34,178 nt of DNA from Rikenellaceae bacterium. GTDB lineage: Bacteria > Bacteroidota > Bacteroidia > Bacteroidales > Rikenellaceae. The stretch covers positions 1 through 34,178 of the forward strand of contig JAUMXM010000021.1 in assembly GCA_030529085.1 (NCBI GenBank), in the 5' to 3' direction. Positions 399 through 23,079 of the stretch are shown piece by piece (the stretch's first letter is position 1; each line of letters starts with the position of its first letter). The notes beneath the pieces were generated by a model, which was not told where the DNA came from, made no database searches, and saw only the letters and a list, made by a program, of their open reading frames with translations. Made by a program: the position numbers and the translations under genes.

Positions 399-525
399 GT
401 TTTTTGATTTTAGGCGAGAAGATTCCGCGCTTCGTGAAGTAAGCCCCGGATGGGTAGTACTTGACGTACGGCCCATTCGGGGCTTGCAAGGGAAGTGCGG
501 AAGGTTCCGCATAAAATCAAAAAAC
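399..525. repeat. Branched palindromic element at the 3' end of the large operon
   Basis: A perfect 14-bp outer inverted repeat (399-412 with 512-525, GTTTTTTGATTTTA) encloses several hairpins. The central stem at 441-485 pairs AAGCCCCGGATGGG with CCCATTCGGGGCTT (one G-T) and adds an inner GTAC/GTAC. A small hairpin at 496-511 pairs TGCGGAA with TTCCGCA. A weaker one near 417-434 pairs GAAG with CTTC. The outer repeat touches the stop codon of the CE2-like gene, so the structure would form at the very 3' end of the operon transcript. It could protect or end the mRNA, or be a small mobile palindrome; there is no U-tract. Confidence 0.65.
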
Positions 526-1589
526 TACCAACAGGTGAGTGTAGTCAAGGCTTCGATAACAACGGCTGCCATTTTCTCTTGCCCATAACGGTTGGGATGC
601 TCGGAGGCACCCAAATCGGTAGTGCGGTTATAGACACCCCACGAGATGTCGGCCATGGCGGTGTAGGGAATCTCCTTGACCATCTCCGAAACACAAGCTA
701 CGGCTGCGGGCGAATGGACCACGCACAAGACGGGAAGTTGGTCGTTGCCCCACGACTCACGCAGGGTCGAGATGAGTTTTTTGTAGCCGGCCACAAAGGC
801 CTCGGGTGCAGGGTGCGGCGAGGTGCTGAAGTCGTTGGTGCTCAACGTAATCACGATGGCATCGGGGCGGTAAGAGCTCGACTGAAAATCCCAAGCCGAG
901 CCGACCTCTTCGTCGTAGAGGCGCAGGGCACGGCCGCTCATCGTGGTCTCGAATGCGGACAACGACAGCGAGTCGCCATAGTTGCGCACAAGGCCTCGGC
1001 CCGAGTGCGAAACAAGGTTGTAGTCGGCATCGAAATGGGCAGCGGTCACGGCAGCGTAGCTGTAGCAGCAGTTCTCGGTCTCGGGCAGGAAGGGCTCGCT
1101 ACCCGACTTACTCTCGGTGCCGTAGCCGCAGGTGAGCGAGTCGCCATAGTACTCGATGTGCAACGGACGCTTCAGGTGGTCGGTCGCAAGGAAGCGGCCA
1201 TCGGTCGTGAGGCTGTGGAGCGTCACACGGCCCTGCTCGGCCTCGGTGGCCTTCTGGATACGGATGTGGTGTTCGCCCTCGGCCTCGGGGTTATTGAAGA
1301 GCACGACGGTCGTACGATCGCCCTCCGAGATGAATTTCTCCTGCGGCACACCGTCAAGGATAAGGTTGAAGTAGTTGCGCTTCGTATCGCTCAGCTCGAT
1401 GGCTAGGTAGCTGCCTTTGAAGCGGATGTCGATATAGACACCGCTCCAATCAAACGAGATGGCACCGTCAGAAAGTTGCTCGACACGGCCCACCACACGA
1501 ATCGGGGCCTCGGCGGCCCTCTTCGTTCCACTGCCGCCACATCCACACAGGGTGGCCAGGGTTGCACACATCATCAAAAATCGTCTCAT
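525..1589 (-). CDS. CE2-like SGNH/GDSL esterase lipoprotein
   Basis: Predicted secreted carbohydrate esterase of 354 residues. The N-terminus is a lipoprotein-type signal with cysteines at 15 and 17 (LCGCGGSG). Residues about 30-135 look like the beta-sandwich domain that precedes the catalytic domain in carbohydrate esterase family 2. The SGNH domain begins with YYGDSLTCGYG, giving nucleophile Ser151. STNDF carries the oxyanion Asn, and SEHPN near the C-terminus carries the catalytic His. CE2 enzymes remove O-acetyl groups from sugars. This is the last gene of the operon; its start codon overlaps the stop of the FAD oxidoreductase gene (TAATG), implying translational coupling. The exact acyl group and sugar cannot be read from sequence. 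Confidence 0.85.
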   Translation of the reverse strand: MRRFLMMCATLATLCGCGGSGTKRAAEAPIRVVGRVEQLSDGAISFDWSGVYIDIRFKGSYLAIELSDTKRNYFNLILDGVPQEKFISEGDRTTVVLFNNPEAEGEHHIRIQKATEAEQGRVTLHSLTTDGRFLATDHLKRPLHIEYYGDSLTCGYGTESKSGSEPFLPETENCCYSYAAVTAAHFDADYNLVSHSGRGLVRNYGDSLSLSAFETTMSGRALRLYDEEVGSAWDFQSSSYRPDAIVITLSTNDFSTSPHPAPEAFVAGYKKLISTLRESWGNDQLPVLCVVHSPAAVACVSEMVKEIPYTAMADISWGVYNRTTDLGASEHPNRYGQEKMAAVVIEALTTLTCW

Positions 1590-3409
1590 TATTGAAAATC
1601 TCCGTTAATGGTTACCTCCCGCTCGAAGGGGCGCAAGAGGGCATCGATCACCACGGCGCACTCCTCACGGGTCAGCGGGCGGTTGGCGTTGTAGTCGGGC
1701 AACCCCCACGCATTCCAAATAGCATCGTTAATCTCGCCAAACCACCCCTCCAAATCGGCAAGGGTCACCATTCGCTCCTCGCTTCGAAGCGTAAAGCGGT
1801 CGCCGTCGAAGCGATGCAGACCCGCCGAGAGTTCGGCCACCGAAATGGGCTCATCCTTGCGCAGCCAGGTCTGGTTCTCCCAGCCGACCGTCATCCCGAC
1901 GCACTCCATCACACCCGTCACGGCGACCCGTTGCAGGGCGGCAAAGTGGCTGTCCGTAGCGGGCAAATCGAGCAACGGCAAGAGGTAGCCACCGCCACGC
2001 AACACCTCACGCTGCACCTCACGCACCGAGACCTCGCGCGGCTCAATGCCCTCACGCACAGCCAGGGCGGCAATGATGCCGGCGGCCTCGCCAATCTGCA
2101 TCACAACGGGTTGCAGGCGGGTCGAGCCATTGACAATGTTGCTCACCGAGATCGACTTCTCGGCCACGATCAGTCCATCGACCCCCTCGGGCAGGAGCGT
2201 GCCCATCGGCAGGCCGTACGAGGGCACCGAGTGGAAATAGAGATTGGGCAGTGCCTCCCAACCCGTGTAGCGGGTGTGGTGCTGATCGACCGGGTAGTCG
2301 CCCACACCAATGGCGGTGCGGTAGAGCGTGTAGTCGTAGGGCGAGGTGATGTGTTGTAACTTAAAGCGCACCAAGCCGTGCGTACGGCGCGACTCGCGGT
2401 GGTAGGGAATAATCGGCATCAGATCCTCGGTCGGGAACTCGTCATCGGCCAGGTAGAGGGTATTCAGCCCCAGCTGGTGCTGAATGAAGTAGAGGAAGTT
2501 AAGGGTGTGGGCCTTGGCTTTGGCCACCGCCTCCCGGCGCTCCTCGGGCGTCATCTCGACCATATTGACATAGTAGTCGTTGCCCTCGATGGGCCAATTG
2601 ATCATATATTTGCCCCCCGGCAGACGGCCATAGGTGAGCATCATCTGCTGCGACCAGAGGCGGTTGGCCTCCTTGGGGGTGTGGCAGATGGCATTGTCGC
2701 AAGCGCAGGCGAAGAGGGTCGAATCGTAGTCGGCAGGGCGAGGGATGGTCATATCTCGGCCGTAATCCTTCAGTATCATCACCATCGTCAGGTCCTGAAT
2801 GATGCCGTTGGCCTCCTCGGGGGCGATATCCTCACCCGTCACCGCACGGCTCTCCATACCCAAATCGTAGCCTACCCCCTGTGCGGCCGCCACATCGCCC
2901 AGCTCCGTAGCATCGATAACCACACGGGCCACAACTCGCTGCTTGCCCTTCGGGCCTCGGAGGGTGATGTTCCACACCCCGTCGATGCGCTCGATGGACT
3001 CCACACGACTCTCGAAAGCCACACTGAGTTGCTCCTCGGCCGAGGCCATCGCGGCAAAAATCTCGGCACCGACGTGCGGCTCGAACAGCAGGTTGCTCAC
3101 CCACCCCGTCTTGAGCGCCTCCGCACCGCCATAGCGTGCCTCCAGCGAGTCTCGCAACTCGCCCCACATACCGCCACGAAGTCGGTAGTTGCCATCCGTG
3201 GCACTCACACCGGCCGAGGTGAGCATACCGCCCAACCAGGGACCCTCTTCAATGACAAGGGTGTGGACACCCAGACGGGCCGCACGAATGGCTGCCGTAG
3301 TACCGCTGACACCACCGCCAACAACTACAACATCGTAGGATTGGGGGCTACACGCACCCAACAAGGCCGCAGCAACCACTGCCACGACATAGCAAAGAGT
3401 TCGTTTCAT
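1589..3409 (-). CDS. FAD-dependent oxidoreductase lipoprotein (FAD_oxidored type)
   Basis: 606 residues. A lipoprotein signal (lipobox LLGAC, Cys20) is followed at once by a Rossmann FAD-binding motif, VVVVGGGVSGTTAA (GGGVSG at 31-36), and by GGMLTSAGVSATDG, typical of the PF12831 FAD_oxidored family. A later RLQPVVMQIGEAAGIIAALA segment fits the closing part of the FAD domain. Family members flavinylate non-covalently and oxidise or reduce small molecules; many PUL-encoded members have no known substrate. Lipid anchoring puts it outside the cytoplasm, so it may act on the glycan or a released sugar. The start follows the phosphoesterase stop by 11 bases, and the gene overlaps the CE2-like gene by one base. 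The substrate is unknown. Confidence 0.8.
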   Translation of the reverse strand: MKRTLCYVVAVVAAALLGACSPQSYDVVVVGGGVSGTTAAIRAARLGVHTLVIEEGPWLGGMLTSAGVSATDGNYRLRGGMWGELRDSLEARYGGAEALKTGWVSNLLFEPHVGAEIFAAMASAEEQLSVAFESRVESIERIDGVWNITLRGPKGKQRVVARVVIDATELGDVAAAQGVGYDLGMESRAVTGEDIAPEEANGIIQDLTMVMILKDYGRDMTIPRPADYDSTLFACACDNAICHTPKEANRLWSQQMMLTYGRLPGGKYMINWPIEGNDYYVNMVEMTPEERREAVAKAKAHTLNFLYFIQHQLGLNTLYLADDEFPTEDLMPIIPYHRESRRTHGLVRFKLQHITSPYDYTLYRTAIGVGDYPVDQHHTRYTGWEALPNLYFHSVPSYGLPMGTLLPEGVDGLIVAEKSISVSNIVNGSTRLQPVVMQIGEAAGIIAALAVREGIEPREVSVREVQREVLRGGGYLLPLLDLPATDSHFAALQRVAVTGVMECVGMTVGWENQTWLRKDEPISVAELSAGLHRFDGDRFTLRSEERMVTLADLEGWFGEINDAIWNAWGLPDYNANRPLTREECAVVIDALLRPFEREVTINGDFQ

Positions 3410-3420
3410 CGAAAATGAAA

Positions 3421-4848
3421 TTAGTCAAGGTTAATGGTTTGAGTGTAGGTGCGGCCAAAGGGGTCGGTCGCCTTCACCGTCACCTGCTTTACGTCAGTCG
3501 GCACGGCCACCTTGAAGAAGTGGTCCGAAACCGAAGGATAGACATAGGGGTGGTCCAACTTCTCCCGATCGGCATACATCTGCTGGGCCGCCGGGTCGTA
3601 GGCCGAGAAGCGCTCCATCGGCTGCCACTTGCCGCCATCGAGCTGCGCTTCGACACGCCAATGCTCATCTACGGCCCAGATGTTGGCCACCACCGTGCCT
3701 TGGAATTGGTCGTAGTCGGCACCCGAATAGAGACTCATCTGGTGGTCGGGGAAGCAAGCGGTCGATTTGTAGTACCACGACACCTCGTCGCCCTTCACCT
3801 CAAAGACCCCGTAGCCACGAGGCGTACCGTCGGTGCAGAGCGTACCCTGCCACCAAGCACCACTCAGGGCGGGGATGACGTGCTCGTAGAGGTTGTCGTT
3901 GATGATTTGGTTGTAGGTCGTGTGGGTGTGACCCGAGAGGATGTGGCCCTTGTAGGGGGCAAGCATCCGATGCAGTTGCAGGGCGTTGGTCATCACATTG
4001 GCAATGTTGCCATACTTGAACTGCTTGCGGTCGTCGGGTTCGCAGGTGGTCGGAATGTGGAGGATGACAAAGACCGTCGAGCCGGGCTCCACGTAGCTCA
4101 AATCCTTTTCGAGCCAGGCAAACTGACGCTCGTCGAGGTAACCGATGTAGAAGTAGTCACGGCCGATATAGAAGTTGTCGTTCAAGACCACATAGTGGGC
4201 CTTACCTACGTTGAACGAGTAGTAGGTGGGGCCGAAGGTTGCCTCCCAGAGGCGGGTCGAGGTCTCGTGCGAACGGCTGTAAAGGGTCATATCGTGGTTG
4301 CCCGGGGTGGAGAAGAAATCGAGCTCCGAGGTGGCCGCCACCTCGTTGTAGGTAGGATAGAAGGTGTGGTCGTACGAAATCACATCACCACAGCAGATGC
4401 CGTGGAAGGGGATGTCGTACTGCTCGACCGTTTGACGAATGTCGGCCATCCCCTCACGCAAGGCGGGGAACTCCTTTTTGTGCCAAATCTGGGGGTCGGC
4501 AATCACCACAAAGCCGTGGTGGGTATCATCTTGCGATTTGCGCTTAAGGGTGAAGTCGTAGCGGCTCACATCGGGAGTCACGGGGTGCCAAAATTGGGGC
4601 ACACTCTCACGGCTCTCCACCTCGTAACCCGAAGGTATGGTGATATAGACCAAGCCGTTGTCCGAAGCCGAGGGCAGGGTGTAACGCCCCTTTGCGTCAG
4701 TCTGCGTGAAATGTTCGCCATCGGTAACAATCACCTCCGCAACACCCACGCCGTCGCATACCACACGCCCCTTCAGGGTGCGCTTCTCGGCCGACATCGC
4801 CATCGTGGCCATCAGCAGGGCCACCACCGCCAAAACAATCCGCTTCAT
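3421..4848 (-). CDS. Secreted calcineurin-like metallophosphoesterase, three-domain
   Basis: 475 residues from the ATG at 4848, chosen because it begins a clean signal peptide (MKRIVLAVVALLMATMAMSA). A longer frame to 5088 would run back through the upstream epimerase gene. Residues about 22-100 form a carboxypeptidase-regulatory-like beta domain (MetallophosN type). The catalytic core carries IADPQ (Asp118), CCGD (about 152-155), PGNHD (about 182-186), ILHIP and SGHTHT, the five metal-binding blocks of calcineurin-like phosphoesterases. The last 130 or so residues match the MetallophosC type of C-terminal beta domain. It probably removes phosphate or cleaves a phosphodiester in the periplasm. 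Together with the NAGPA-type enzyme at the operon start it argues for a phosphorylated glycan. Confidence 0.85.
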   Translation of the reverse strand: MKRIVLAVVALLMATMAMSAEKRTLKGRVVCDGVGVAEVIVTDGEHFTQTDAKGRYTLPSASDNGLVYITIPSGYEVESRESVPQFWHPVTPDVSRYDFTLKRKSQDDTHHGFVVIADPQIWHKKEFPALREGMADIRQTVEQYDIPFHGICCGDVISYDHTFYPTYNEVAATSELDFFSTPGNHDMTLYSRSHETSTRLWEATFGPTYYSFNVGKAHYVVLNDNFYIGRDYFYIGYLDERQFAWLEKDLSYVEPGSTVFVILHIPTTCEPDDRKQFKYGNIANVMTNALQLHRMLAPYKGHILSGHTHTTYNQIINDNLYEHVIPALSGAWWQGTLCTDGTPRGYGVFEVKGDEVSWYYKSTACFPDHQMSLYSGADYDQFQGTVVANIWAVDEHWRVEAQLDGGKWQPMERFSAYDPAAQQMYADREKLDHPYVYPSVSDHFFKVAVPTDVKQVTVKATDPFGRTYTQTINLD

Positions 4849-4869
4849 CGCTCCTCCGTTTTCGTTATT

Positions 4870-4935
4870 CCTTCTCCTCGTTGTCCTTTGTCCTCGTTGC
4901 TCTTTACTCCCTATTATCCTTTGCCCCCGTTGTTC
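4870..4935. repeat. Three imperfect repeats in the epimerase/phosphoesterase spacer
   Basis: In the 98-base spacer, the longest within the operon, a motif close to CCTTTGTCCTCGTTGCTC occurs three times with drift (about 4870-4885, 4885-4902 and 4918-4935). On the mRNA strand this is purine-rich. It may be slipped-strand expansion or a leader for the downstream gene; no hairpin or promoter was found. Confidence 0.4.
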
Positions 4936-4946
4936 GCCGGCCGCCG

Positions 4947-6128
4947 TTATTTCTCCAACTTGGCCTTCAGCTCCTTCAGCAGCCCCTCGCATTTGTAGAG
5001 GCCGCGAGGCACGTGGAAGCAACCCTTCCACTTGCCGCCCTTGAGGGTCAGAAGCACCTCGCCACGGCGATTCAAGTAGCCGTACCACTCGGGGTGCTCG
5101 GCATCACGGAAGTGCGACCAGGTGTAGTCGTGCAGCTTCTCGAACCACGCCTTGCAACGCTCGTCGCCCGTCAGCAGGTAGCCCTCCAACATCGCGATGG
5201 TCGATTCGATGTGGACCCACCAGAGCTTCTGGTCCCACTCCAACTGCTGGGGAGGACACCCCTTGCGATCCATAAAGTAGAAGATGCCGCCAAACTCCTT
5301 GTCCCAACCGAACTCCAACGTATTCAGGCCAATCTCCACGGCTTTGCGGGCCAGCTCCTCGTCACCACGACGGCGAGCCAAATCCATCACAAACCACATC
5401 GTCTCCAACGTATGACCCGGATTTACCAGGCGGCCATCGAACGTATCGCTCAGCGTACCATCGGCATTCAGGTGCTCGACCACCAGCCCCAACTCGGGAC
5501 GGTAGAAGGTATCCATCACGTCCGACAGCACGATGTTGATCGACTCCTCGACACGCTCCGGCTCGATGAGGTGCTCAATCTCCAAAAGCAGGTTGCACAG
5601 AATCATCGAGGGGGCCAGGGCACGCATATCGCGCGACCCGGGGTGGGCCTTGCTCCAACGACCCTTGGGATTCTCCCAACGCTCCATAATGTGGTCGAAG
5701 GTGCGGCGGGTCACCTCGGCATAACGCTCCTCGCCCGTCGCCTTGTGCAGCTGGGCAAAGGCCATCGCCGCAAAGGTATAGGAGAAGATGTTGTAAGGCT
5801 CAACCAGCGGCTTGCCGTCACGGGTCAGGGCAAAGTACCAATTGTAGTCGCCGTCGTGGCCGTAGCGAAGCATAAACTCGGCACCTTGACGGGCACACTC
5901 CAACCACTCGAGGCGCACCCCTTCGCGGTTGCACAGCATCGAGAAGAGCCACACCTGGCGGCCCTGCAACCACATAAACTTATCGGTATCGAATACCGAG
6001 CCGTCACGATCAAGGCAGGTGAAGAATCCACCATACTCGCTATCCTGCGAATGGTTCAACCAGAAGGGAAGCACACGCTCGAATAGCTCGTCGTGGTATT
6101 GTTTAATCAAGGCATCTATCTGCATCAT
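4947..6128 (-). CDS. N-acylglucosamine 2-epimerase (AGE/RenBP family)
   Basis: 393 residues, full length for the family, with no signal peptide, so cytoplasmic. The (alpha/alpha)6-barrel signatures are present: FMWLQGRQVWLFSML, EPYNIFSYTFAAMAF, NPGHTLETMWF, WWVHIESTIAMLEGYL, and near the C-terminus PEWYGYLNRRGEVLL and KGCFHVPRGLY. The histidines in GHTLE and FHVPR correspond to conserved active-site histidines. The usual reaction interconverts ManNAc and GlcNAc; AGE-type enzymes serve as NanE in Bacteroides sialic-acid operons. Two adjacent ATGs (6128, 6125) are equally good starts. It is the clearest cytoplasmic catabolic enzyme of the operon and would feed GlcNAc-type sugar towards NagB. 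Related cellobiose or mannose 2-epimerases cannot be fully excluded. Confidence 0.82.
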   Translation of the reverse strand: MMQIDALIKQYHDELFERVLPFWLNHSQDSEYGGFFTCLDRDGSVFDTDKFMWLQGRQVWLFSMLCNREGVRLEWLECARQGAEFMLRYGHDGDYNWYFALTRDGKPLVEPYNIFSYTFAAMAFAQLHKATGEERYAEVTRRTFDHIMERWENPKGRWSKAHPGSRDMRALAPSMILCNLLLEIEHLIEPERVEESINIVLSDVMDTFYRPELGLVVEHLNADGTLSDTFDGRLVNPGHTLETMWFVMDLARRRGDEELARKAVEIGLNTLEFGWDKEFGGIFYFMDRKGCPPQQLEWDQKLWWVHIESTIAMLEGYLLTGDERCKAWFEKLHDYTWSHFRDAEHPEWYGYLNRRGEVLLTLKGGKWKGCFHVPRGLYKCEGLLKELKAKLEK

Positions 6129-6209: not shown

Positions 6210-7148
6210 TTACAACTTCTCGCCCAGAAAATACTCCCGATAGCGGTCGAACAGATGGTGGGCCGAGTGGTACACCGACTGGGGCGAAAGGAAGTGCGAG
6301 AACTCGAAGGTGATGGCCTTGTCGTAGCCGGCACGGGCTGCCGCCTCCAACTTCAGGCGCAACTTCTCGAACTTGATGGACAGGAACTTGATGGGCATAT
6401 CTCGATCGAAGGTCTCGGCATTGGTCCAGCACTCCAACCCATACTTGTCGGCCAGGCGCTTATTGACCTCAAAGAAGGCATCCAACTCGTCGTAGTCGAT
6501 GTGGCCGTCCTGGAAGGCGACGGCATCGACCGCACCGTGAATACCGGCAAAGATCTCGTCCCACTCCCGCTCGTGGTCGGCCACCGAAACGGCATCCTCC
6601 TTCGAGAGGGTCGAAGAGGCCGCCAAGACCGCCTTCTTTCCATCGATCCAGGGCGAAATCAGGGTCGGCAGACCGTCCGAGACGGCCTTGCAATGTTCGC
6701 CCTGCTCACGGAAGGCCTCGATGACCCCCTTCGTGCGGCGCGAGATCTCGCCACTGAGGTACCAACCCCCAAACGAGGGGTGGTGCTGACCGTAGTTCTC
6801 CCACACCTCGTCGATGACGTAGCGGTTGTATTCGGTCTCCTTCGACATATCGCCCGTGTCCCAATAGTGGCCCGAGTCGTAGAGGCCGAAATAGAATTTC
6901 AAACCGTGTTTATCAGCCAGGCGCAGGAACATATCCAGCAGGTCGGTCGAGGGGGCATAGCACCCCTTGCCGATGAGGTATTTCGAGGGGTAGGTAATAA
7001 ACTTACGATAGCCCGAGCGAATCATAATCACCGTGTCGATGCCAATCGAACGCATATTTGCAAAGTCGGCATCCCACTCCTTCTCGCCCCAATTCTGATG
7101 GGGAATGTCGTGGCTGATTTCGTCGATAAAGGTTCCGGTAATCTTCAT
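6210..7148 (-). CDS. DUF4434 TIM-barrel protein, putative glycosidase
   Basis: 312 residues from the ATG at 7148 (MKITGTFIDEISHDIPHQNW). An upstream in-frame start at 7166 would overlap the DUF5009 stop, so the shorter form is preferred, leaving a 5-base gap. The sequence matches the DUF4434 family by its opening segment, the GIDTVIMIRSGY strand, LKFYFGLYDSG, and GWYLSGEISR, whose glutamate sits where a TIM-barrel glycosidase would place a catalytic acid. No signal peptide is visible, so it is either cytoplasmic or exported another way. DUF4434 genes are frequent in Bacteroidota glycan loci, but I know of no confirmed activity. An 81-base gap separates it from the epimerase gene. Confidence 0.75.
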   Translation of the reverse strand: MKITGTFIDEISHDIPHQNWGEKEWDADFANMRSIGIDTVIMIRSGYRKFITYPSKYLIGKGCYAPSTDLLDMFLRLADKHGLKFYFGLYDSGHYWDTGDMSKETEYNRYVIDEVWENYGQHHPSFGGWYLSGEISRRTKGVIEAFREQGEHCKAVSDGLPTLISPWIDGKKAVLAASSTLSKEDAVSVADHEREWDEIFAGIHGAVDAVAFQDGHIDYDELDAFFEVNKRLADKYGLECWTNAETFDRDMPIKFLSIKFEKLRLKLEAAARAGYDKAITFEFSHFLSPQSVYHSAHHLFDRYREYFLGEKL

Positions 7149-8570: not shown

Positions 8571-9233
8571 TTACTTACGCAGATACTTCATTTTTTTGAG
8601 GTGGTTCACCCACACCACATAGGCCTCGGGGTGGAGGTGAATACCATCCTTGGTGTACTCCTCACGCAGTTCGTCCTGCTCGTTGTGCAGCAGCTCGGTT
8701 AAATCGACCCACGTCGCCAGCCCCTCGTCGCACATCGCCTTCAGGCGGGCATTCAGCTCACGGGTCTGGGGCTGCTTGTTCTTGATGTAGGGGTAGGCCA
8801 ACACCTCGTTGTTGGGGGTCACCACACTCTGCACATAGACCTTGCACGAGGGGACCTTTTGACGAATCATCTCCAACATTTTGCGGATGTTCGAGGCGAT
8901 CTCCTCGACGGGGCGGTTACCCGAAATGTCGTTCACACCACCCATAAAGAAGATCTTGCGGGGCGAAGACTCCAAAATCTCGGGCAGGCGGGCCAACATA
9001 CCACGGGTATTGTCGCCACCAATGCCGCGATTGACCAGCGGGCGCTCCTTGGTCAAAAAGCCCCACCAAGCCTGCTCGGTGATGCTGTCACCAATCCACA
9101 CCACGGCACCCGTCGGCATCCCCGCCTTCCGGTGGGCAGCCAAACGGCAATCGTAGTAGGCACCGAACTCGGACTGGGCCGAGGCCGACACCATCGCCAC
9201 CAAAGCGGCACACAAGAGCAACAGTCGTTTCAT
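8571..9233 (-). CDS. Secreted SGNH/GDSL hydrolase
   Basis: 220 residues with a signal peptide (MKRLLLLCAALVAMVSASAQ) but no lipobox, so probably periplasmic. All SGNH blocks are visible: WIGDSIT (nucleophile Ser50), NRGIGGDNT (Gly block), GGVNDI (Asn block) and DGIHLHPEAY (Asp and His). Relatives act as acetylhydrolases, carbohydrate deacylases or lysophospholipases. In this operon a sugar O-deacetylase is the most natural role, parallel to the CE2-like esterase at the operon end. It starts 9 bases after the stop of the second GHL10-like gene. Confidence 0.85.
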   Translation of the reverse strand: MKRLLLLCAALVAMVSASAQSEFGAYYDCRLAAHRKAGMPTGAVVWIGDSITEQAWWGFLTKERPLVNRGIGGDNTRGMLARLPEILESSPRKIFFMGGVNDISGNRPVEEIASNIRKMLEMIRQKVPSCKVYVQSVVTPNNEVLAYPYIKNKQPQTRELNARLKAMCDEGLATWVDLTELLHNEQDELREEYTKDGIHLHPEAYVVWVNHLKKMKYLRK

Positions 9234-14395: not shown

Positions 14396-17300
14396 TTAGA
14401 GCGTAATGTTCAAACCTACCGACATCACACGCTGCTGCGGGTAGTAACCGTTGTTCACACTCGGCAGCTCGGGGTCGATGTTATACTTGCCCACGTGGCT
14501 GAATGTCAAGAGGTTCGAGCCCTCGACATAGATGCGCAGCTTGCGGATACCGGCCTTGCGCGTCAGCTTCTCGGGCAGCGTGTAACCAATCTGGGCCGTC
14601 TTCAGACGCAGGTAGTCACCCGGACGATACCAGCGGGTCGAAGAGTAGGCGTTGTTCGACGACGAAGCCAACGACAGACGGGGGAAGTAGGCACCCGTAT
14701 TCTCGGGTGTCCACGAGTTCTCAACCAGATAGAGCGGCGAGTTACCGTCGTGGTAGAAGGGCTTGGTCATCGAGGTGTTGTCCATAATACCGCCATCATA
14801 AACACCCGTCAGTGCGATGGTCGAGCCAACAGCACCCTGCAACAGGAAGTTCAGGTCGATGCCCTTCCACTCGGCGTTGAAGGCCAAACCGGCCGTGAAC
14901 TTGGGATAGATACTCGTACCTACATAACCACGGTCCTGCTCGTACGAAATTTTGCCGTCACCGTTGCGGTCGATGTACTTAATATCACCCACACGAACAT
15001 CCTTACCAATCATCGTGGGCGAGTTCTCAACCTCTTCCCAGCTCTGGAACAGACCATCGTCGATGAAACCAATCACCGAGCCAACCTCCTTGCCCGTCAG
15101 CTTCTGATAGTCGGGGGCATTGGCGGCATCGCCCGAGTAGAGCAGCCAACGACGCTTGGCATACGAACCCATAAACTTGATGCCGTACGAGAAGTCACGA
15201 CCCACACGGTTGTTGTGCGAAAGGGTCAAATCGAAACCGCGCACATCCTGCTTGTTCTTGTTCTCCCAAGCGGGGAAGTAACCACCCACCGAGGGAGGAT
15301 AGGCACCCGATGCGCTGGCCAGCATATCATATTTATAGGTATAGAAGACGTCGGCCTCAACACCCAGCTTGCCACCCCAGAAGGTTGCATCGACACCGAT
15401 GTTGTAGTTCAGGTTCTTCTCCCACGAGATATTGGGGTTGGACACCGACGTGGTGTAGATGCTCTGCTGACCGGCACCACCGATGATGATGGCGTTACCG
15501 TCCGAAATCGACATCGAGTTCAGGTACTGGTAGGCGCTCACGGCCGACGTACCCGTCAGACCGATACCACCACGCAGCTTGAGGTTATCGACCCACTCGG
15601 CACCAAACCACTTCTCCTCCGAGATACGCCAACCGGCCGAAGCGGCGGGGAAGAAGCCCCAACGCGAGCCGTTCATACCCGAGAAGAGGTAGGTACCGTC
15701 GTAGCGACCCGACAGCTCGATGTAGATGCGGTTGTCGAAGTCGTAGTTCAGACGAGCCACGAAGCCCACCTGACGCGAGCGGTTCGACGTACCGCCAATG
15801 GCACGCTTGTCGCTCGAAGCATCACCGAAGTTGAGCTCGGGCAGATTCTCGAACAACAGATCGTACATACGACCATAGTGGTTGTTCGACTTGTAGTCGC
15901 GCGTCTCCATCAGGGCCAAGGCAGCCACGCGGTGCTTACCGAACGTGTTGTCGTACGAAAGCGAGGTCTGCGTGATACCGTAGTAGGTGTAGTACGAAGC
16001 CTCCTGCAACGAGGTCTCCGAGCCCAGGCCCGAATAGGTGCTGCCCACCGTGTAGTTCATCTTGCTGATGTAGCCGTTCTCGTCGTACGAGAAGTTGGCC
16101 AATGCCAAATCGTAGGGGGTCGAGAAGGCCTTGGTGTGCTGGAAGGTCATATCGTACGAAGCGAAGAACTTGGCCGACAGACCCTTCACCCACGGCAGAT
16201 CCCAACGCAACGAGATGTTGGGCTGAATGTAGGTGGCACGGCTCTTATACGAACCCGACTCCTCATAGGCAGCCACGGGGTTTACCGTAGCCGAGGCAGT
16301 CGGCGTGGCGGTGTGGTACTCCACGCCGTCGATGGTTACCTTCTCGGGAACGTAGGGGTGTACACGCATTGCCTGCTGTGCCACGTTGTTCCAAGCCGAA
16401 GGATCGGCCGAGTAGGTCGGCTGGTCGTGGTCCTGAATACGGCCTGCCACACCCACCTCCAGGGTAAGGTTCTTGGCAATCTTGGTCGAGAGGTTGGCAC
16501 GAGCCGTATAGCGACGAAAGTTGAAGTTATCGACGTTACCCTTCTGGTCGAACATACCCACCGAAGCAAAGTAGTTCATCTGGTCGTTACCGCCGTTGGC
16601 CGAGAGGGTGTGCGACATCGTCGTACCCACGCCAAAGACCTTGTCGTACCAATCGGTGTTACCCCAACCATTGCGCTCGTTGAGCATATCCTGCACGATG
16701 TCGGCCGTGAAGATGGGCTGCTTGCCATCCAACTCAAGGGCCTTGTTGTACCAATAGGCATAACCCGGACCATCCAACAGATCCATCGGGTTGGCATTCG
16801 AGCTGACACCAAACGTACCCTTGTACGAAATGGTCGATTCGCCCTTCTGGCCACGCTTCGTGGTCACGATGATAACCGTGTTACCATCCAGACCATAGAC
16901 GGCAGCAGCCGAGGCATCCTTCAGAATCGAGATCGACTCGATATCCTCGGGGTTGATCTGGTTGATGTCACGAGGCACACCATCGACGATGTAGAGCACC
17001 GACTGACCGCGCACCATGATCGACGAACCATCGGCACCGGGCTGACCCGAGGTCTGCACAGCCGTCACACCGGCCACACGACCTGCCAACATATTCGTTA
17101 CGTCGCCCACGGGAGCCTTCTCAAGCTCCTCGCCCGAGATCTGCGAAATGGCAGCCGTTACCGAGGCCTTCTTCTGCACACCGTAACCTACAACCACCAC
17201 ATCTTCGATGATCTCGGCGTCGCTCTTAAGCACCACCTCCAGATTCGTGACACCATTGACAGGCACGGTCACGGTCTGATAGCCGATGAACGAGATCTGC

Positions 17301-17551
17301 AGAACACTCTCCTTCTTGATGTTTTGCAGCGCAAACTGACCGTTGATGTCGGTTGTGGTACCCGTTTGGGTGCCTACCACAATGACCGTGGCGCCGATGA
17401 CCGGTTCTCCCGCTTCATCGAAAACCGTTCCCTTGACACTGTTTTGTGCCCAAGCCGAACCCGGGCTCAAAACCACGAAGAGTGCACAAAGAGTGGCCAC
17501 CATACGGCTCCACAACTTTGCGGCTCCCCCTGTTTGGGATAAATGTTTCAT
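14396..17551 (-). CDS. SusC/RagA family TonB-linked outer-membrane transporter
   Basis: 1051 residues. After a long signal (to about residue 36, ending GSAWAQ) comes a carboxypeptidase-regulatory domain (about 38-120) with GTVFDEAGEPVIGATVIVVGTQTG. A TonB-box-like DVVVVGYG follows. The plug domain has the SusC signature GRVAGVTAVQTSGQPGADGS, YIVDGVPRD and ISILKDASAAAVYG. The rest is beta barrel, closing with QQRVMSVGLNITL; it ends in Leu where Phe is more usual. No STN domain is present, so control by an anti-sigma/ECF pair is not expected. It imports oligosaccharides with energy from TonB-ExbBD. Unusually it is the third gene of its operon, preceded by two enzyme genes. Confidence 0.98.
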   Translation of the reverse strand: MKHLSQTGGAAKLWSRMVATLCALFVVLSPGSAWAQNSVKGTVFDEAGEPVIGATVIVVGTQTGTTTDINGQFALQNIKKESVLQISFIGYQTVTVPVNGVTNLEVVLKSDAEIIEDVVVVGYGVQKKASVTAAISQISGEELEKAPVGDVTNMLAGRVAGVTAVQTSGQPGADGSSIMVRGQSVLYIVDGVPRDINQINPEDIESISILKDASAAAVYGLDGNTVIIVTTKRGQKGESTISYKGTFGVSSNANPMDLLDGPGYAYWYNKALELDGKQPIFTADIVQDMLNERNGWGNTDWYDKVFGVGTTMSHTLSANGGNDQMNYFASVGMFDQKGNVDNFNFRRYTARANLSTKIAKNLTLEVGVAGRIQDHDQPTYSADPSAWNNVAQQAMRVHPYVPEKVTIDGVEYHTATPTASATVNPVAAYEESGSYKSRATYIQPNISLRWDLPWVKGLSAKFFASYDMTFQHTKAFSTPYDLALANFSYDENGYISKMNYTVGSTYSGLGSETSLQEASYYTYYGITQTSLSYDNTFGKHRVAALALMETRDYKSNNHYGRMYDLLFENLPELNFGDASSDKRAIGGTSNRSRQVGFVARLNYDFDNRIYIELSGRYDGTYLFSGMNGSRWGFFPAASAGWRISEEKWFGAEWVDNLKLRGGIGLTGTSAVSAYQYLNSMSISDGNAIIIGGAGQQSIYTTSVSNPNISWEKNLNYNIGVDATFWGGKLGVEADVFYTYKYDMLASASGAYPPSVGGYFPAWENKNKQDVRGFDLTLSHNNRVGRDFSYGIKFMGSYAKRRWLLYSGDAANAPDYQKLTGKEVGSVIGFIDDGLFQSWEEVENSPTMIGKDVRVGDIKYIDRNGDGKISYEQDRGYVGTSIYPKFTAGLAFNAEWKGIDLNFLLQGAVGSTIALTGVYDGGIMDNTSMTKPFYHDGNSPLYLVENSWTPENTGAYFPRLSLASSSNNAYSSTRWYRPGDYLRLKTAQIGYTLPEKLTRKAGIRKLRIYVEGSNLLTFSHVGKYNIDPELPSVNNGYYPQQRVMSVGLNITL

Positions 17552-17614
17552 AGTTATTGAGTTTTAAGTTTGTGAATTTTTCGCCTATTTTCGAGTTCCG
17601 ATGTGGGAAACAAC

Positions 17615-18964
17615 CTACTTTTCGGCCTTGATATTCTGCTCCAGAATCTCCCACCAGTCGTGGTTGATGATGTGCACCAGGTCGAAGATCATCAGACCAC
17701 CCTCGCAGCTCTTCATCACCTGCGCCACAGCCTTGCCAAACTGCTCGGGATCATCCACCTGCTTGCCATCCTCGCCCTGCTTCTTGTACTGCTCGACATA
17801 GAGCGAGCCGACCACCGGCACCACACCGCAGGTGATACCCTGAGCCAATTCGGCACCGCCCTCGACCGAGTAGCAGTAGGTCAGATCGTTGGGATCCATA
17901 CCCGACTCGGTACGCTGACCCACGATGGGGCGACCCTGAGCGGCATCCACCTCGTCCTTCGTAACGAGCGTGTAGTAAAGACCCGTCATATAGATGTCCA
18001 ACAGCTCGGCGTAACCCGTCTTGTGGTAGCTCTCCGACGCCCAATCGGGATAACGCTCCGAGGGGTCGTACTGCGTGCTGGCCCAATTCACGCCCAGCTG
18101 ATAGTAGGTCGGATACCAAGCTCCCGTATAGTCACCGATGAGGATGTCGGGATTGGCGGCGTGGATGGCCTCGTGAGCCTCCTCGACAAACGACTTGATG
18201 ATCGTGGCACGCCACTCGACCCACTCCTTGAAGTACTTACCGGGCTTCCAGGTCTTCTCGTCGGCCCACGTCAATACATCCTCGGGGTAGTTCTCGAGCT
18301 TGATGCCGCTCCAAGCCTCAAACTGCTCGCGCGAGAGGGGCGAAAAGTCCGACGTGATGTTGTCGTAGCGCAGACGGTCGAAGATGATACCGTCGGCATC
18401 CTTATAACGCTCGGCAAACTCCACCAGAATGTTCTTCTGATACTCGCGCACCTCGGGGTTCGAGGGGTTGAGCATACCGTTGTAGTTGGTCTTGATCTGG
18501 CTGATGGGGACCAACTCGCCATTCGACTTATAGACAATCGACTGCCACTCGGGGTGGTCGTTGTAGATGATGCCGCGGTTGAAGAAGTTGTGACCGCCGG
18601 CAAAGATGTTCAGCGAGCCGTGTACACGCATTCCTGCGGCGTGGCCCAGGTCGATGAAGTGGCGCATCATATCGTAGCTGCGCTCACGCACCGTACCCTC
18701 GAACTCGCCCATATAGGGGGCATACTTGCTGTCGTAGAGGGTCTCGCCCATAATCGACTTGACATCGACCACGATGTCCGTAACGCCAATCTCCTTCATC
18801 TTATCGACATAGAAGGCAATCGAGTCGGGATAGCTCATACGCTCGAAGTTGGCCTCACAATCAACCCACATATAGACGGGTTTCGTCGGCTGCGTTTCCG
18901 CACAGCCGACAAACAACACCAAGGCCGCCAGGGCCACCGTGAAAAATGCAAAATATCGTTTCAT
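17615..18964 (-). CDS. GHL10-like glycosidase lipoprotein (short paralogue)
   Basis: 449 residues. The lipobox (LFVGC, Cys21) is followed almost at once by the catalytic domain, without the Fn3-like module of the paralogue at 9243-10910. Shared landmarks are PVYMWVDCEANF, TDIVVDVKSIMGETLY, AGMRVHGSLNIFAGG, DGIIFDRLRYDNITSDFS, PTYYQLGVNWAS and a closing GGLMIFDLVHIINHDWWE. The acids in the D-R-RYD block are the likeliest catalytic residues, by analogy with family-10-like glycosidases. It lies between the NAGPA-type gene and SusC, with gaps of 57 and 63 bases that contain no -7 box. The two paralogues may cleave different linkages or act at different stages. Confidence 0.65.
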   Translation of the reverse strand: MKRYFAFFTVALAALVLFVGCAETQPTKPVYMWVDCEANFERMSYPDSIAFYVDKMKEIGVTDIVVDVKSIMGETLYDSKYAPYMGEFEGTVRERSYDMMRHFIDLGHAAGMRVHGSLNIFAGGHNFFNRGIIYNDHPEWQSIVYKSNGELVPISQIKTNYNGMLNPSNPEVREYQKNILVEFAERYKDADGIIFDRLRYDNITSDFSPLSREQFEAWSGIKLENYPEDVLTWADEKTWKPGKYFKEWVEWRATIIKSFVEEAHEAIHAANPDILIGDYTGAWYPTYYQLGVNWASTQYDPSERYPDWASESYHKTGYAELLDIYMTGLYYTLVTKDEVDAAQGRPIVGQRTESGMDPNDLTYCYSVEGGAELAQGITCGVVPVVGSLYVEQYKKQGEDGKQVDDPEQFGKAVAQVMKSCEGGLMIFDLVHIINHDWWEILEQNIKAEK

Positions 18965-19021
18965 ATCTTTTTCTGGAAAATTTTGCTGGAGTGTTTACCT
19001 ATATTATATAATAATTGTTCG

Positions 19022-20299
19022 TTACTCGACAGCCGAGATGACTACCGCCGTCGGCACGGCACGCTGACTGCCATCGCTCGGCGTGTTGCAGAGCTGACCG
19101 TCGTAGCCCACGATGGCCGACGAACCACCGCCGTCGAGGTTGATGGCGTAGTCCATACCCATCTCCACAAAGATGTCGGCCATCTCCTCGAGGGTCAGAC
19201 CATTCGAGCCGTTGTTGCCACGACCGTCGCACACCAGCACCATCACCTTGCCATCCTTCGTACCGCCCACGGCCGTACGGGGCTGACGCGACTTGCCTGC
19301 CGTGCCACCCGTGTGCATAATCTCACGGTAGTAGTAGTCCATAGCGACATTCTTGCCCTTATAGACCAACATCGGGCCGCCACCGATGGCCTGCTGCGGC
19401 TCCCAAAGGGTGGCACCGGCCGTCGTGGTGGTCGGGGCCGACTTCATATAGGTCTCGGTCAGCTCGTCGTTATCGAGCGGCGAGGGGAACGAGTAGGGTT
19501 TGTTGTTGATGCAATAGACCCACGTAGCCTCGAACGAGCCGTCGGCCATTTGACCCAGCGCAGCACGTACGGGGTAAGCGATAATCTGCTCGCCATTGAC
19601 GGTCGGGTAGGCCAACTCGGTGGCAATCGACTTCACCTCGCCATCCGTGATGCAGAGGCTCAACGAAGCGCCATCCCAGAAGAAACCGCCATTCGAAACC
19701 ACATAGGGGGTACCCTTACCCAGCGACGAGAACGACCCAAAGATCGAGGTCGGGGTCTCGGCAGGCTTGAGGTGGGTGGGGGCAAAACGCAGCTTGGGGT
19801 TGGCCTTCAGGTCGGCGATGGCGATGTAGCCCTTCGCTACGCCACCATCCGAGTAGGTGCGCTCGAACTTCTCAAACGACATACGCTTCGGATAGTTCGA
19901 CTCGGGGGCGTCGCTGGCCGTGATAACCGTCACGGGCACACACACCGAACCGTGCAGCTCATCCTTGGCGGCGGCAATGAAGGTGTAGGCCGTAGCGGGG
20001 GTCAGCCCCTCGACCTTGACCTCCGAAACCTCCTCCACATGGGGCGTACCCTCGGCGAAGATCTGATCGAGCGTCTTGCTCAACGACTCACCCTCGGCAT
20101 AGAGGTAGGCGCAGTCGGTTGCGTAGTAGGACTTGATGCGTACGGTGATATAGTCCGTACCCTTCTCGACAGGGGTAATGGTGACGGTCGGCGTCGTCTC
20201 GGGCGTCGGGAAGACATACTCGGGATTCACCTCCTCCTCACAGCTGAAACAGAGGCCGATGCAGGCCACAAAAAGCGTCAAAAGGTAAAACTTCTTCAT
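19022..20299 (-). CDS. Phosphodiester glycosidase (NAGPA family) lipoprotein
   Basis: 425 residues, first gene of the operon. The lipobox LCFSC is followed by EEEVNPEYVFP, and then an Fn3-like module (about 35-130) very like that of the GHL10-like protein at 9243-10910. The rest is a NAGPA/DUF2233 domain: YVVSNGGFFWDG, QAIGGGPMLVYKGK, QPRTAVGG, VLVCDGRG and the diagnostic NLDGGGSS (387-394). The mammalian uncovering enzyme of this family removes GlcNAc from GlcNAc-1-phospho-6-mannose, a sugar-1-phosphodiester. The bacterial enzyme therefore probably cleaves a GlcNAc-type phosphodiester. A promoter-like sequence lies upstream (20332-20362). Confidence 0.88.
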   Translation of the reverse strand: MKKFYLLTLFVACIGLCFSCEEEVNPEYVFPTPETTPTVTITPVEKGTDYITVRIKSYYATDCAYLYAEGESLSKTLDQIFAEGTPHVEEVSEVKVEGLTPATAYTFIAAAKDELHGSVCVPVTVITASDAPESNYPKRMSFEKFERTYSDGGVAKGYIAIADLKANPKLRFAPTHLKPAETPTSIFGSFSSLGKGTPYVVSNGGFFWDGASLSLCITDGEVKSIATELAYPTVNGEQIIAYPVRAALGQMADGSFEATWVYCINNKPYSFPSPLDNDELTETYMKSAPTTTTAGATLWEPQQAIGGGPMLVYKGKNVAMDYYYREIMHTGGTAGKSRQPRTAVGGTKDGKVMVLVCDGRGNNGSNGLTLEEMADIFVEMGMDYAINLDGGGSSAIVGYDGQLCNTPSDGSQRAVPTAVVISAVE

Positions 20300-20331: not shown

Positions 20332-20362
20332 TAAAATTAAATAAAATTATCCATATAACAAA
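20332..20362 (-). promoter_or_regulatory. Putative promoter of the 13-gene operon
   Basis: On the minus strand TAATTTTA (20339 to 20332) matches the -7 box TAnnTTTG at all but its last base. TTTG (20362 to 20359) stands 19 bases upstream. The start would be near 20325, about 25 bases before the NAGPA-type ATG. A second match, TATTTTTG at 20309-20302, is only 2 bases from the ATG and has no -33 partner. No comparable box was found in the spacers inside the operon. Confidence 0.4.
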
Positions 20363-20501
20363 TCTTTTTAAATAAATTTTAATATGGATTTTCGGCGCAA
20401 TTTTTCGTTTATTTATTGATTTACAACTATTTAACCGCTTTTTGCCAAGATTTTTGCAAAATAAATTTTTTTCTAAAAGTTTTCACCCTCCGCCCTGCAA
20501 C

Positions 20502-20564: not shown

Positions 20565-21839
20565 CTACTTCTCCTGCGGATCGGGATAGGTGAAGGGGAG
20601 GAACCAGGTAAGAATCAACGCCGGCACGGCACTCAGCAGCGACCAGATGAAGAACTGCTCGTAGCCGATGGCATCGCTGATCACACCCGAAATCATACCC
20701 GGCAACATCACGCCCAGATTGGCCAGGGCCGAGCCGAATGCGTAGTGGGCCATCTGGTGTTTTCCGGGGGCAACCTGCTGCATAATAAAGAGCGTAAGAC
20801 CCACGAAACCAAAGCCATAGCTAAAATACTCGAAGACAATCGCACCGCACACCAACCACATATTATCGGGCTGATAAACGGCCAGCAGGGCGTAAATCAC
20901 AAACGGCACATTGAAGATGCAGCAGAGCGGGAAAATCGCCTTTTTAAGCCCTCGCCACGAGATAAAATAACCACCCAAAATCGAGCCGAGAATAAAGGCC
21001 ACCACGCCAAACGTTCCGTAGTAAAGGCCGATCTGATCCTTCGTAAGACCCAGGCCCTGCACGGCCGTGTCGGCCTTCAGGAAGAGGGGCACGATTTTGA
21101 TTACGAGTCCCTCCGTAAAGCGGTAGCAGACGATCCAGGCGATATAGAGCCAGATGTATTTCTTCCGGAAAAATTGGGCAATCACACCCCACGTTTCACG
21201 CATCGTTTCGCCAAACGTAGCGTGCGTTTTGGCCGCCTCGCCACCCGCCGGAAGCACCCGCCAATGGTACAGGCCGAGCACCGCTAACAGAATGCCACAC
21301 AGCAACATAATGATGACCCAGGCGTAGAGGACACCCATCTGCGCCTCCAACTTTCCGGCCAGCCAAACCAGACCGCCCATCGCCGTCACCTTGGCCAGGT
21401 TGTAGAAGGCACCCTGCCATCCCACAAACTGCGCCTGCTGGGTCTTATCCAGCTCGGTGATATAGACTCCGTCGAGGGCAATATCGTGCGTAGCACCGCT
21501 GAAAGCCAACACCGCCATAATGGCCACCACGTAGGGGAAGAAGTTGGGCAGCGGCAGAGCCATTGCAATGAGAGCCAGCGAGATACCCGACACCAACTGC
21601 GTCGTGACGACGAAGAATTTTTTGGTGCGATACATCTCCATCAGCGGGCTCCAGAAGGGCTTGAGCGACCACGGAAGAATCAAGAGCGAGGTCCAGAAGG
21701 CCACCTGGGCATCCGAGATGCCGAAATCGTTAAACATCAAAGGGGCCACCAGGTTGATGAGAATCAACGGCAGACCCATCGCAAAATAGGCGGTGGGAAC
21801 CCACCACAGGGGCGATTTTTTGAGTTGCGCCTGTTCCAT
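20565..21839 (-). CDS. MFS transporter, AmpG/SLC45-like
   Basis: 424 residues from the ATG at 21839 (MEQAQLKKSPLWWVP); the longer frame to 21908 runs into the ROK gene. About twelve hydrophobic helices are visible. Between helices 2 and 3 the loop SLKPFWSPLMEMYRTKKFFVV and the segment SGATHDIALDGVYITEL resemble the AmpG/PAT-type permeases that import muropeptides or other amino-sugar compounds. It sits 34 bases downstream of the ROK gene and shares its transcript, so it is probably repressed by it. Likely role: inner-membrane import of the sugar released by the neighbouring operon. The substrate is inferred only from context. Confidence 0.8.
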   Translation of the reverse strand: MEQAQLKKSPLWWVPTAYFAMGLPLILINLVAPLMFNDFGISDAQVAFWTSLLILPWSLKPFWSPLMEMYRTKKFFVVTTQLVSGISLALIAMALPLPNFFPYVVAIMAVLAFSGATHDIALDGVYITELDKTQQAQFVGWQGAFYNLAKVTAMGGLVWLAGKLEAQMGVLYAWVIIMLLCGILLAVLGLYHWRVLPAGGEAAKTHATFGETMRETWGVIAQFFRKKYIWLYIAWIVCYRFTEGLVIKIVPLFLKADTAVQGLGLTKDQIGLYYGTFGVVAFILGSILGGYFISWRGLKKAIFPLCCIFNVPFVIYALLAVYQPDNMWLVCGAIVFEYFSYGFGFVGLTLFIMQQVAPGKHQMAHYAFGSALANLGVMLPGMISGVISDAIGYEQFFIWSLLSAVPALILTWFLPFTYPDPQEK

Positions 21840-21873
21840 TGTTTTATCTGTTTTAGTAGTTAATTTCAACGCT

Positions 21874-23079
21874 TTACAGACCGAGCATCTTATTGCGCAC
21901 GATGGCACAGATACCCACCAGACCGGCCGATTCGCCCAACTTCGAGACCTTGATCGACGTATCCTTCGAAACGAAGTTCAGAGCAAATTTATTGATGGCG
22001 CTCTTGATGGGCAGCAGCAGGTAATCCTTCGCCTCGTAGAGGGTTCCACCCAGCACCACCACCTCAGGGTTGAACATATTGATCAAGCCCGCAATGGCTC
22101 GCCCGAGCGAGGCGCCAATCTGCTCCATCACCTCGATGGCCAGCATATCCTCTTTGCTCAGCGCATCCAAAATGTCACGCACCGTAATCTGCTGACCTGC
22201 TTCAAATTGCGACGAAAGCATCGAGATGTTGCCCTGCTTGAGTTTTTCAACAAATTGGCGGTGTGCGGCGCAGCCCGAGACCTCCGTTTCGAGGCAGCCG
22301 CGCTTGCCACACGAGCAGATAATTTCGTTATCGAAGAAGGGGAAGTGGCCATACTCGCCCGAGAAGCCCGATTTGCCATAATGCAACTCGCCCCCGAGGA
22401 TCATACCGATGCCGAAGCCCCAGCTTAAATTCAAAAAAATCATATTCTGCTCACCATTGCCGACGCCATAGACATACTCGCCGTAAGCCATTGCACGTGA
22501 GTCGTTTTCGATAAAGACACGACACCCCACACGCTCCTCCAGCACGTGGGTGAGCGGCTTCTCGTCGAAGAAGAAGTAGGAGTAGCTGTAACCCGTCTCG
22601 GGATTGACACGTCCCGAGAGGTTGATGCCGATGGCCAAAATCTTCTCTTTGCGAATGCGGGTCGAGGCAATGAAGGTGTTGATGTGGCCGCACAACTCGT
22701 CGAACGACTGGCGAGTGTTTTCGATGGTGAAATCGTACTGCCGCTGCACCACCATATCGCCTCGGAAGTTGATGATACCCAACACAATAACATCACGCAT
22801 AATATCCACGCCCATAAAGTAGCCGGCCGACGGATTCAGCCCGTAGATGCTCGGGCGACGACCACCCGTCGCCCCCTGTTTTCCCAGGTCGCAGACAAAG
22901 TTTTCGTCGATGAGTTCGCCCACGATTTTCGTCAGGGTCGGCACACTCAACCCGAGCTCTCGACTCAAATCGGCTATGCTCTCGCCGCCGTTCAACATAT
23001 ATCGGCGCAGGATCTCTCGTTTGAGCTGGGCCGACTTCTTGCCGCTGGTCAGGGCCTCAAGAAAGTTCGCTTTTACCAT
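21874..23079 (-). CDS. ROK family transcriptional repressor (NagC/Mlc-like)
   Basis: 401 residues, the usual length of ROK repressors rather than ROK kinases. The N-terminal winged helix-turn-helix spans about 15-65 (ESIADLSRELGLSVPTLTKIVGELIDENFV). The ROK domain follows with MGVDI (89-93), the phosphate-loop-like LSWGFGIGMILGG, SGEYGHFPF (His245) and the zinc site CSCGKRGCLE (Cys255, Cys257, Cys262). ENDSRAMAYGE keeps the sugar-binding Asn192-Asp193. NagC-type proteins sense GlcNAc-6-P or a related sugar, which fits a locus with NagB and an epimerase. It is divergent from the lipoprotein-nagB unit, so the shared intergenic region probably holds its operator. Confidence 0.92.
   Translation of the reverse strand: MVKANFLEALTSGKKSAQLKREILRRYMLNGGESIADLSRELGLSVPTLTKIVGELIDENFVCDLGKQGATGGRRPSIYGLNPSAGYFMGVDIMRDVIVLGIINFRGDMVVQRQYDFTIENTRQSFDELCGHINTFIASTRIRKEKILAIGINLSGRVNPETGYSYSYFFFDEKPLTHVLEERVGCRVFIENDSRAMAYGEYVYGVGNGEQNMIFLNLSWGFGIGMILGGELHYGKSGFSGEYGHFPFFDNEIICSCGKRGCLETEVSGCAAHRQFVEKLKQGNISMLSSQFEAGQQITVRDILDALSKEDMLAIEVMEQIGASLGRAIAGLINMFNPEVVVLGGTLYEAKDYLLLPIKSAINKFALNFVSKDTSIKVSKLGESAGLVGICAIVRNKMLGL

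Follow-up and report, generated by a model that had tools for sequence, protein, structure and literature searches.

A recurrent SusCD-type polysaccharide utilization locus of Rikenellaceae that may target a phosphodiester-bonded amino-sugar glycan

The Bacteroides thetaiotaomicron region BT0438-BT0454 carries, according to published annotation, SusC/SusD pairs, two family-10 glycosylhydrolases, an annotated calcineurin C-terminal phosphoesterase, DUF5009, a sugar porter and an alpha-N-acetylglucosaminidase (PMC10434189); BT0438 is a GH89 protein (PMC8225759). The GHL10 domain has been described as a lytic transglycosylase in Cwp19 of Clostridioides difficile (PMC6016235), with PgaB as its nearest fold (PMC5765458). 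The murein linkage unit of wall teichoic acid is beta-ManNAc-(1,4)-alpha-GlcNAc-1-P (PMC7831098), where ManNAc and GlcNAc are N-acetylmannosamine and N-acetylglucosamine; this agrees with a preliminary description of the DNA considered here.

We analysed positions 1 to 34,178 of contig JAUMXM010000021.1 from a Rikenellaceae bacterium of the ruminant gut (assembly GCA_030529085.1, 1.90 Mb, 85% complete), the whole 34,178-nucleotide stretch being referred to as the window. It contains a SusCD-type polysaccharide utilization locus (PUL), with TIGR04056 and SusD_RagB matches, lipoboxes found by pattern and an array of genes on one strand. The pieces of this locus probably serve one substrate, because its NAGPA-type phosphodiester glycosidase, 2-epimerase, phosphoesterase, acyl esterases and GHL10 proteins recur together in other Bacteroidales. 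The joint recurrence of NAGPA, phosphoesterase, acyl esterases, HGSNAT-like acyltransferase and epimerase points to an acylated glycan of amino sugars that contains sugar-phosphate bonds, and we put at roughly 0.43 the probability that this is one PUL of a recurrent type harvesting an acylated, amino-sugar-rich glycan held together at least in part by sugar-1-phosphate phosphodiester bonds, a prediction made from gene content. Gram-positive cell-wall or capsular glycopolymers are a plausible source of such a glycan, and the most likely one. As far as listings and partial texts show, no characterised substrate for this PUL type was found in the literature.

Gene content of the array

Domains were called by a Pfam scan of 20 window proteins, supplemented with NCBIfam, and motifs and lipoboxes by pattern. 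The genes and domains that the preliminary description had named on the minus strand all score above their Pfam cut-offs. It placed a thirteen-gene locus at 525..23079, but the thirteen genes that lie head to tail run from 20299 down to 525; a major facilitator superfamily (MFS) transporter, 265 nt from the NAGPA gene, and a NagC-like ROK regulator extend the array to 23079 and make it fifteen. The gene that had gone unnamed encodes a DUF5018 lipoprotein (10980-12728). The array is tightly packed and not, as had been said, gapless: once starts are corrected, neighbouring genes overlap by 1 nt at one extreme and stand about 98 nt apart at the other. The features are as follows.

19022..20299, minus: predicted NAGPA-type phosphodiester glycosidase, likely lipoprotein (PF09992 108.7 bits, cut-off 25)
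17615..18964, minus: GHL10 + DUF4985 putative glycosidase, likely lipoprotein (GHL10 69.8, DUF4985 117.5 bits; DGIIFDRLRYD)
14396..17551, minus: SusC-like TonB-dependent transporter (TIGR04056 891 bits, cut-off 368)
12742..14385, minus: SusD-like lipoprotein (SusD_RagB 181 bits)
10980..12728, minus: DUF5018 lipoprotein, likely surface glycan-binding (272.8 bits; lipobox by pattern)
9243..10910, minus: GHL10 + DUF4985 putative glycosidase, likely lipoprotein (GHL10 64, DUF4985 116 bits; DGIILDRGRYD)
8571..9233, minus: SGNH esterase, secreted (Lipase_GDSL_2 93 bits)
7154..8563, minus: DUF5009 membrane acyltransferase, putatively HGSNAT-like (202.6 bits)
6210..7148, minus: DUF4434 putative enzyme, no signal sequence seen (275.7 bits)
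4947..6128, minus: N-acyl-D-glucosamine 2-epimerase (AGE), cytosolic (NCBIfam NF052547 658.5 bits, cut-off 600)
3421..4848, minus: calcineurin-like metallophosphoesterase, secreted (MetallophosN/C; start corrected to an internal Met; motifs DPQ, GD..GNHD, ILHI, GHTH)
1589..3409, minus: FAD-dependent oxidoreductase, likely lipoprotein (PF12831 321 bits; lipobox by pattern)
525..1589, minus: CE2-type SGNH esterase, likely lipoprotein (CE2_N 79 bits plus Lipase_GDSL_2; motifs GDS, S-x-ND, HPN; lipobox by pattern)
20334..20382, minus: AT-rich block preceding the NAGPA gene, candidate promoter or operator (shared by the window and nine relatives with strong conservation)
20565..21839, minus: MFS transporter, AmpG-like (MFS_1 82 bits; TIGR00901 145 bits, cut-off 350)
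21874..23079, minus: ROK-family regulator with helix-turn-helix, NagC-like (ROK 198 bits, HTH_24)
23446..25593, plus: divergent DUF4988 + DUF5018 lipoprotein (N-terminus BT3328-family-like, 142 bits, cut-off 1100)
25714..27705, plus: NagB-LmbE type protein (NF002557 854 bits, cut-off 384)

Signature motifs are intact by pattern check in the epimerase, the phosphoesterase, both esterases, both GHL10 proteins, NAGPA and the ROK protein. The assignment of the NAGPA protein to its family rests on the PF09992 score together with the RTA-G and NLDGGGS motifs, which it shares with the solved mammalian NAGPA. The epimerase, whose identity as given in the preliminary description is borne out by its NCBIfam equivalog score, aligns with the solved AGEs 2gz6 and 6f04 and contains RQVW, NPGH, EWDQKLWWVH and FHVPR, which we take to be active-site residues, so that it is predicted to be a GlcNAc/ManNAc 2-epimerase. 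Both GHL10 proteins carry the domain known from the lytic transglycosylase Cwp19, any lytic activity of their own being putative, and a PDB sequence search with the protein at 17615-18964 returned no significant match. The SGNH esterase at 8571-9233 is a relative of the solved 6njc ('Sialate O-acetylesterase | Lysophospholipase L1'), and the DUF4434 protein scores 556 bits against PDB 4h41 ('putative alpha-L-fucosidase'), presumably BT_0435. The consensus of 20 aligned DUF4434 copies opens with RRDFLK, which is twin-arginine (Tat)-like; the window copy starts without it. Lipobox patterns occur on the CE2, FAD, DUF5018, SusD, NAGPA and both GHL10 proteins, and the acidic residues that follow the lipobox cysteines of NAGPA and SusD resemble what we assume to be surface-export signals.

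By Pfam, none of the 20 window proteins scanned has a hexosaminidase or sialidase domain, in agreement with the preliminary description, nor did the scanned proteins yield a sialic-acid lyase, an amidase, a MurNAc (N-acetylmuramic acid) etherase, a lysozyme, a GH89, a polysaccharide lyase or a sulfatase domain. NagB-LmbE does lie nearby, as had been stated, but on the plus strand and with another plus-strand gene in between, and it was rejected as an array member. Likewise set aside were a 655-aa minus-strand open reading frame (ORF) at 25783-27750, which matches no Pfam family and is antisense to NagB-LmbE, and an Rfam RNA inside the array, the sole gathering-level match in the window being a tRNA.

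The AT-rich block, about 50 nt long, is strongly conserved in 10 of 10 aligned sequences between variable flanks and holds two TTTATTTAA-like elements; from its position and conservation it is likely a promoter or a ROK operator. NagC is the best NCBIfam match of the ROK protein, under the cut-off. In positions 1-20000, sites found by sigma-70-like and terminator-like scans were no more numerous than in shuffled sequences. As for the transporter, the preliminary description's AmpG-like MFS is a likeness and falls short of AmpG level, the muropeptide-transporter model TIGR00901 giving the 145 bits listed above. It is the only TIGR00901 match in the source genome; all nine close relatives have it, against 0 of 33 other compared regions. 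A sugar porter was not found in the source genome, in a search that had no positive control and on an 85%-complete assembly, and it seems to have been replaced in the source clade.

Recurrence in Rikenellaceae and Bacteroides

The array order recurs in nine of nine close relatives as far as the compared DNA extends, and all nine hold the MFS, NAGPA, GHL10, SusC, SusD, DUF5018, SGNH, DUF5009, DUF4434, AGE, phosphoesterase and FAD genes. The CE2 gene lies beyond their stretches and is present in 10 of 10 near relatives (L032-L041, overlapping the nine). The idea that the combination is unique to the source genome was thus rejected, the same set being found in relatives. Conserved synteny in other Bacteroidota genomes, which the preliminary description had asked for, exists, and the rarity which it had implied is not supported, since the combination recurs in relatives and several of its families are annotated at BT0438-BT0454. 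Its interpretation is supported in part: the co-recurring families fit one substrate, and some relatives do have classical GH20 or GH89 enzymes.

NAGPA relatives occur in 30 of the 200 genomes of the family that were searched, own genome included. We compared 29 NAGPA-centred regions of 33 places outside the own genome (all but G184, G117 and two places in G092), and 25 of them have at least one further family of the PUL or a GH20/GH89 gene. GH89 adjoins NAGPA in L113, L119 and L121, GH20 lies near it in L114, L116, L120, L122, L128 and L129, and GDPD phosphodiesterase genes stand beside it in L123 and L124. The remaining four regions (L125, L126, L127, L131), which have none of the further PUL families sought and no GH20/GH89 gene near NAGPA, hold a second NAGPA subtype (38-40% identity).

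Loci with DUF4434 give a wider view, limited to the best 80 of at least 588 loci and counted by tblastn (E<=1e-8, query-dependent) because shadow ORFs in GC-rich loci distort ORF layouts; certain loci are short, and the DNA of the ten near relatives ends before NAGPA (0 of 10 reach it). The closest of the 80 belong to ruminant Alistipes and Rikenellaceae assemblies. Matches were obtained for the sugar porter in 63, the epimerase in 50, SusC in 41, FAD in 36, GHL10 in 28, ROK in 23, the phosphoesterase in 19, DUF5009 in 14 and GDPD in 7; sialidase and sialic-acid lyase, with one query each, gave 0 of 80. Compared with an estimated background of about 0.5 per Mb (124 matches in 120 Rikenellaceae genomes), the seven GDPD loci in 1.31 Mb are only suggestive of enrichment, as the two sets cover different taxa and related Alistipes account for three of the seven. 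At one locus (L050:3528-5507), GDPD is joined to an SGNH esterase and sits between two GHL10 genes.

Across the order, DUF4985 was found in 5 of 198 genomes, own included; among 70 Bacteroides genomes, 17 have it, so the PUL type is recurrent and not ubiquitous. Thirteen regions chosen for DUF4985 (hence with GHL10 by choice) were compared, 12 from these Bacteroides genomes (G400, G425, G441, G448 and G452 were left out) and one from G271. All have SusC and SusD; DUF5018 and DUF4434 were each found in 12, the phosphoesterase and DUF5009 in 11, NAGPA, the epimerase, the sugar porter and an acyl esterase (of four kinds sought) in 10, FAD and SASA esterases in 8, GH20 in 4 and GH89 in 2 (G363, G396). 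Sialidase was matched in two and the lyase in one, the queries being from G258, with one self-match each. The NAGPA and epimerase counts were the same with window proteins alone as queries, and Pfam confirms NAGPA in G258, G416 and G443. The window has the composition of this Bacteroides GHL10-DUF4985 type: SusC-SusD-DUF5018-GHL10 with phosphoesterase, DUF5009, DUF4434 and AGE. In L143 (12968-15643), GHL10-DUF4985 and a calcineurin-like phosphoesterase are fused in one 891-aa protein, a hint that the two act on one substrate. A further region (G362, L149), excluded as too short at 6.4 kb, contains DUF4434, an SSS transporter, FAD, GHL10 and ROK.

Candidate substrates

The wall-teichoic-acid linkage unit contains both sugars of the epimerase and a sugar-1-phosphate bond, and on such a polymer the locus could work as follows. 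The surface lipoprotein NAGPA would cut at GlcNAc- or ManNAc-1-phosphodiester bonds and the surface GHL10 lipoproteins at glycosidic bonds, and DUF5018, SusD and SusC would bind the fragments and carry them in. In the periplasm, the SGNH and CE2 esterases would strip acyl groups, and the metallophosphoesterase would cleave phosphodiesters or take off phosphate. DUF5009 would move acetyl from cytosolic acetyl-CoA to the free amino sugar. The MFS protein would take up the resulting sugar, AGE would convert ManNAc to GlcNAc for GlcNAc catabolism, and the ROK protein would sense an amino-sugar product and derepress the operon.

Several results weigh against this proposal, some of them by favouring host glycans. 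NAGPA is missing from three of the 13 DUF4985 regions and was found in only five of the 80 DUF4434 loci, partly because the DNA stops short; GDPD has no tblastn match in the 13 regions and none in the source genome, an 85%-complete assembly on which all own-genome negatives rest; and NAGPA-domain proteins may have other substrates. The B. thetaiotaomicron operons are induced in vivo (PMC6989115), and BT_0439 has been implicated in host-glycan degradation (PMC5238430), both of which fit host glycans. A rather unlikely alternative is that the target is a host sialylated, O-acetylated mucin-type glycan, with the epimerase as NanE acting after a lyase, the esterases as sialate O-acetylesterases and the GH20 and GH89 of relatives trimming GlcNAc. 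The PUL of G258 (L143-L144) encodes a NanA-like lyase and a BNR sialidase along with SASA esterases, GH20 and a NanM-like domain, the PUL of G437 has GH20 genes and a sialidase match as neighbours, and the SASA esterases of 8 of the 13 regions and the GH89 of G363 and G396 point the same way. A sialidase cluster described elsewhere has B. thetaiotaomicron PUL9 as its closest homologue, and PUL9 is reported to be involved in the use of sialylated mucin and human milk oligosaccharides (PMC10761964).

Sialidase and lyase are nonetheless rare in the compared regions, as the counts above show, and the NAGPA and phosphoesterase would go unexplained by a sialoglycan. In the source genome, all three DHDPS-family proteins match dapA best and fall below the NanA cut-offs, so no sialic-acid route for the epimerase is evident; this is a weak test, as one of them scores 139.8 for NanA and the G258 lyase itself, a DHDPS-family protein with N-acetylneuraminate lyase as best match, scores 136.5 against a cut-off of 281. 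The three own BNR_2-repeat proteins (a fusion with a rhamnosidase domain, a BT_1020-like protein and a protein of 393 aa) all lack the N-terminal neuraminidase domain that the G258 sialidase has, again a weak test; two of them compared with that sialidase show about 21% identity, and strong BNR_2 repeats in two own proteins (242 and 277 bits) count on the other side. Outside the window, the own genome has a GH20-associated domain once above and once below cut-off. The G258 epimerase is of a different subtype, 37% identical to that of the window. The sialic-acid reading fits some relatives better than the source organism.

An alpha-linked GlcN/GlcNAc glycan (heparosan-like, gastric-type mucin or glycosylphosphatidylinositol-like), in which DUF5009 would re-acetylate glucosamine like HGSNAT and GH89 or NAGPA-type enzymes would remove alpha-GlcNAc, is improbable. 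GH89 does adjoin NAGPA in L101 as well as in the three regions named above, BT0438 belongs to that family, and DUF5009 sequences intermix with HGSNAT, with a putative function (PMC12423673); yet the scanned window proteins lack GH89, polysaccharide lyase and sulfatase domains, the 2-epimerase would go unexplained, and the B. thetaiotaomicron enzyme reported as highly active on heparosan is Bt3590. Peptidoglycan or muropeptides, with a Cwp19-like GHL10 transglycosylase, SGNH esterases that de-O-acetylate MurNAc and the genome's sole AmpG-like MFS importing disaccharides where no sugar porter was found, are quite improbable, as that MFS is far under the AmpG cut-off, a sugar porter takes its place in other genomes (63 of 80 loci and 10 of 13 regions), no amidase, etherase or lysozyme domain occurs among the scanned window proteins, and neither 2-epimerase nor NAGPA is needed for peptidoglycan alone.

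If the phosphoglycopolymer proposal is true, such loci would strip wall-teichoic-acid linkage units or sugar-1-phosphate polymers, and gut Bacteroidota would feed on the walls of Gram-positive neighbours. A phosphodiester amino-sugar polymer as target would connect gut Bacteroidota with the degradation of the envelopes of other bacteria, and DUF4434, DUF5009, DUF4985 and DUF5018 would gain a function. It is doubtful that the PUL type is, across several Bacteroidota families, dedicated to bacterial phosphoglycopolymers, opening them with a surface phosphodiester glycosidase and ending in a ManNAc-to-GlcNAc epimerase. The tractable Bacteroides species with counterparts make the substrate question directly testable.

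Comparison with described systems

The nan operons of Tannerella and Bacteroides comprise nanL, nanE, nanT, nanH and nanU. They have in common with the window a GlcNAc/ManNAc 2-epimerase and SGNH-type esterases; unlike them, the scanned window proteins include no lyase or sialidase domain, and the SusD scores 41 bits against a NanU cut-off of 425. With Cwp19 the window shares the GHL10 domain, found in two of its proteins, where it is joined to DUF4985, unlike in the C. difficile system. With mammalian NAGPA (the uncovering enzyme) and the DUF2233 structure 3ohg, the common ground is the PF09992 domain with its two motifs; only about 70-115 residues align, and the window protein has an N-terminal extension. 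The NAGPA protein of L150 was considered as the solved 3ohg and rejected at just 52 bits.

The likeness to BT0438-BT0454, with its operons BT0439-BT0443 and BT0453-BT0449, is one of annotation only, and the entries seen in the partial annotation list include no NAGPA, epimerase, FAD or DUF4434. Its occurrence elsewhere, the model genus Bacteroides included, makes the PUL less novel. Set against the B. thetaiotaomicron region as annotated, the window carries a single SusCD pair, lacks GH89 and has an AmpG-like MFS in the place of the sugar porter.

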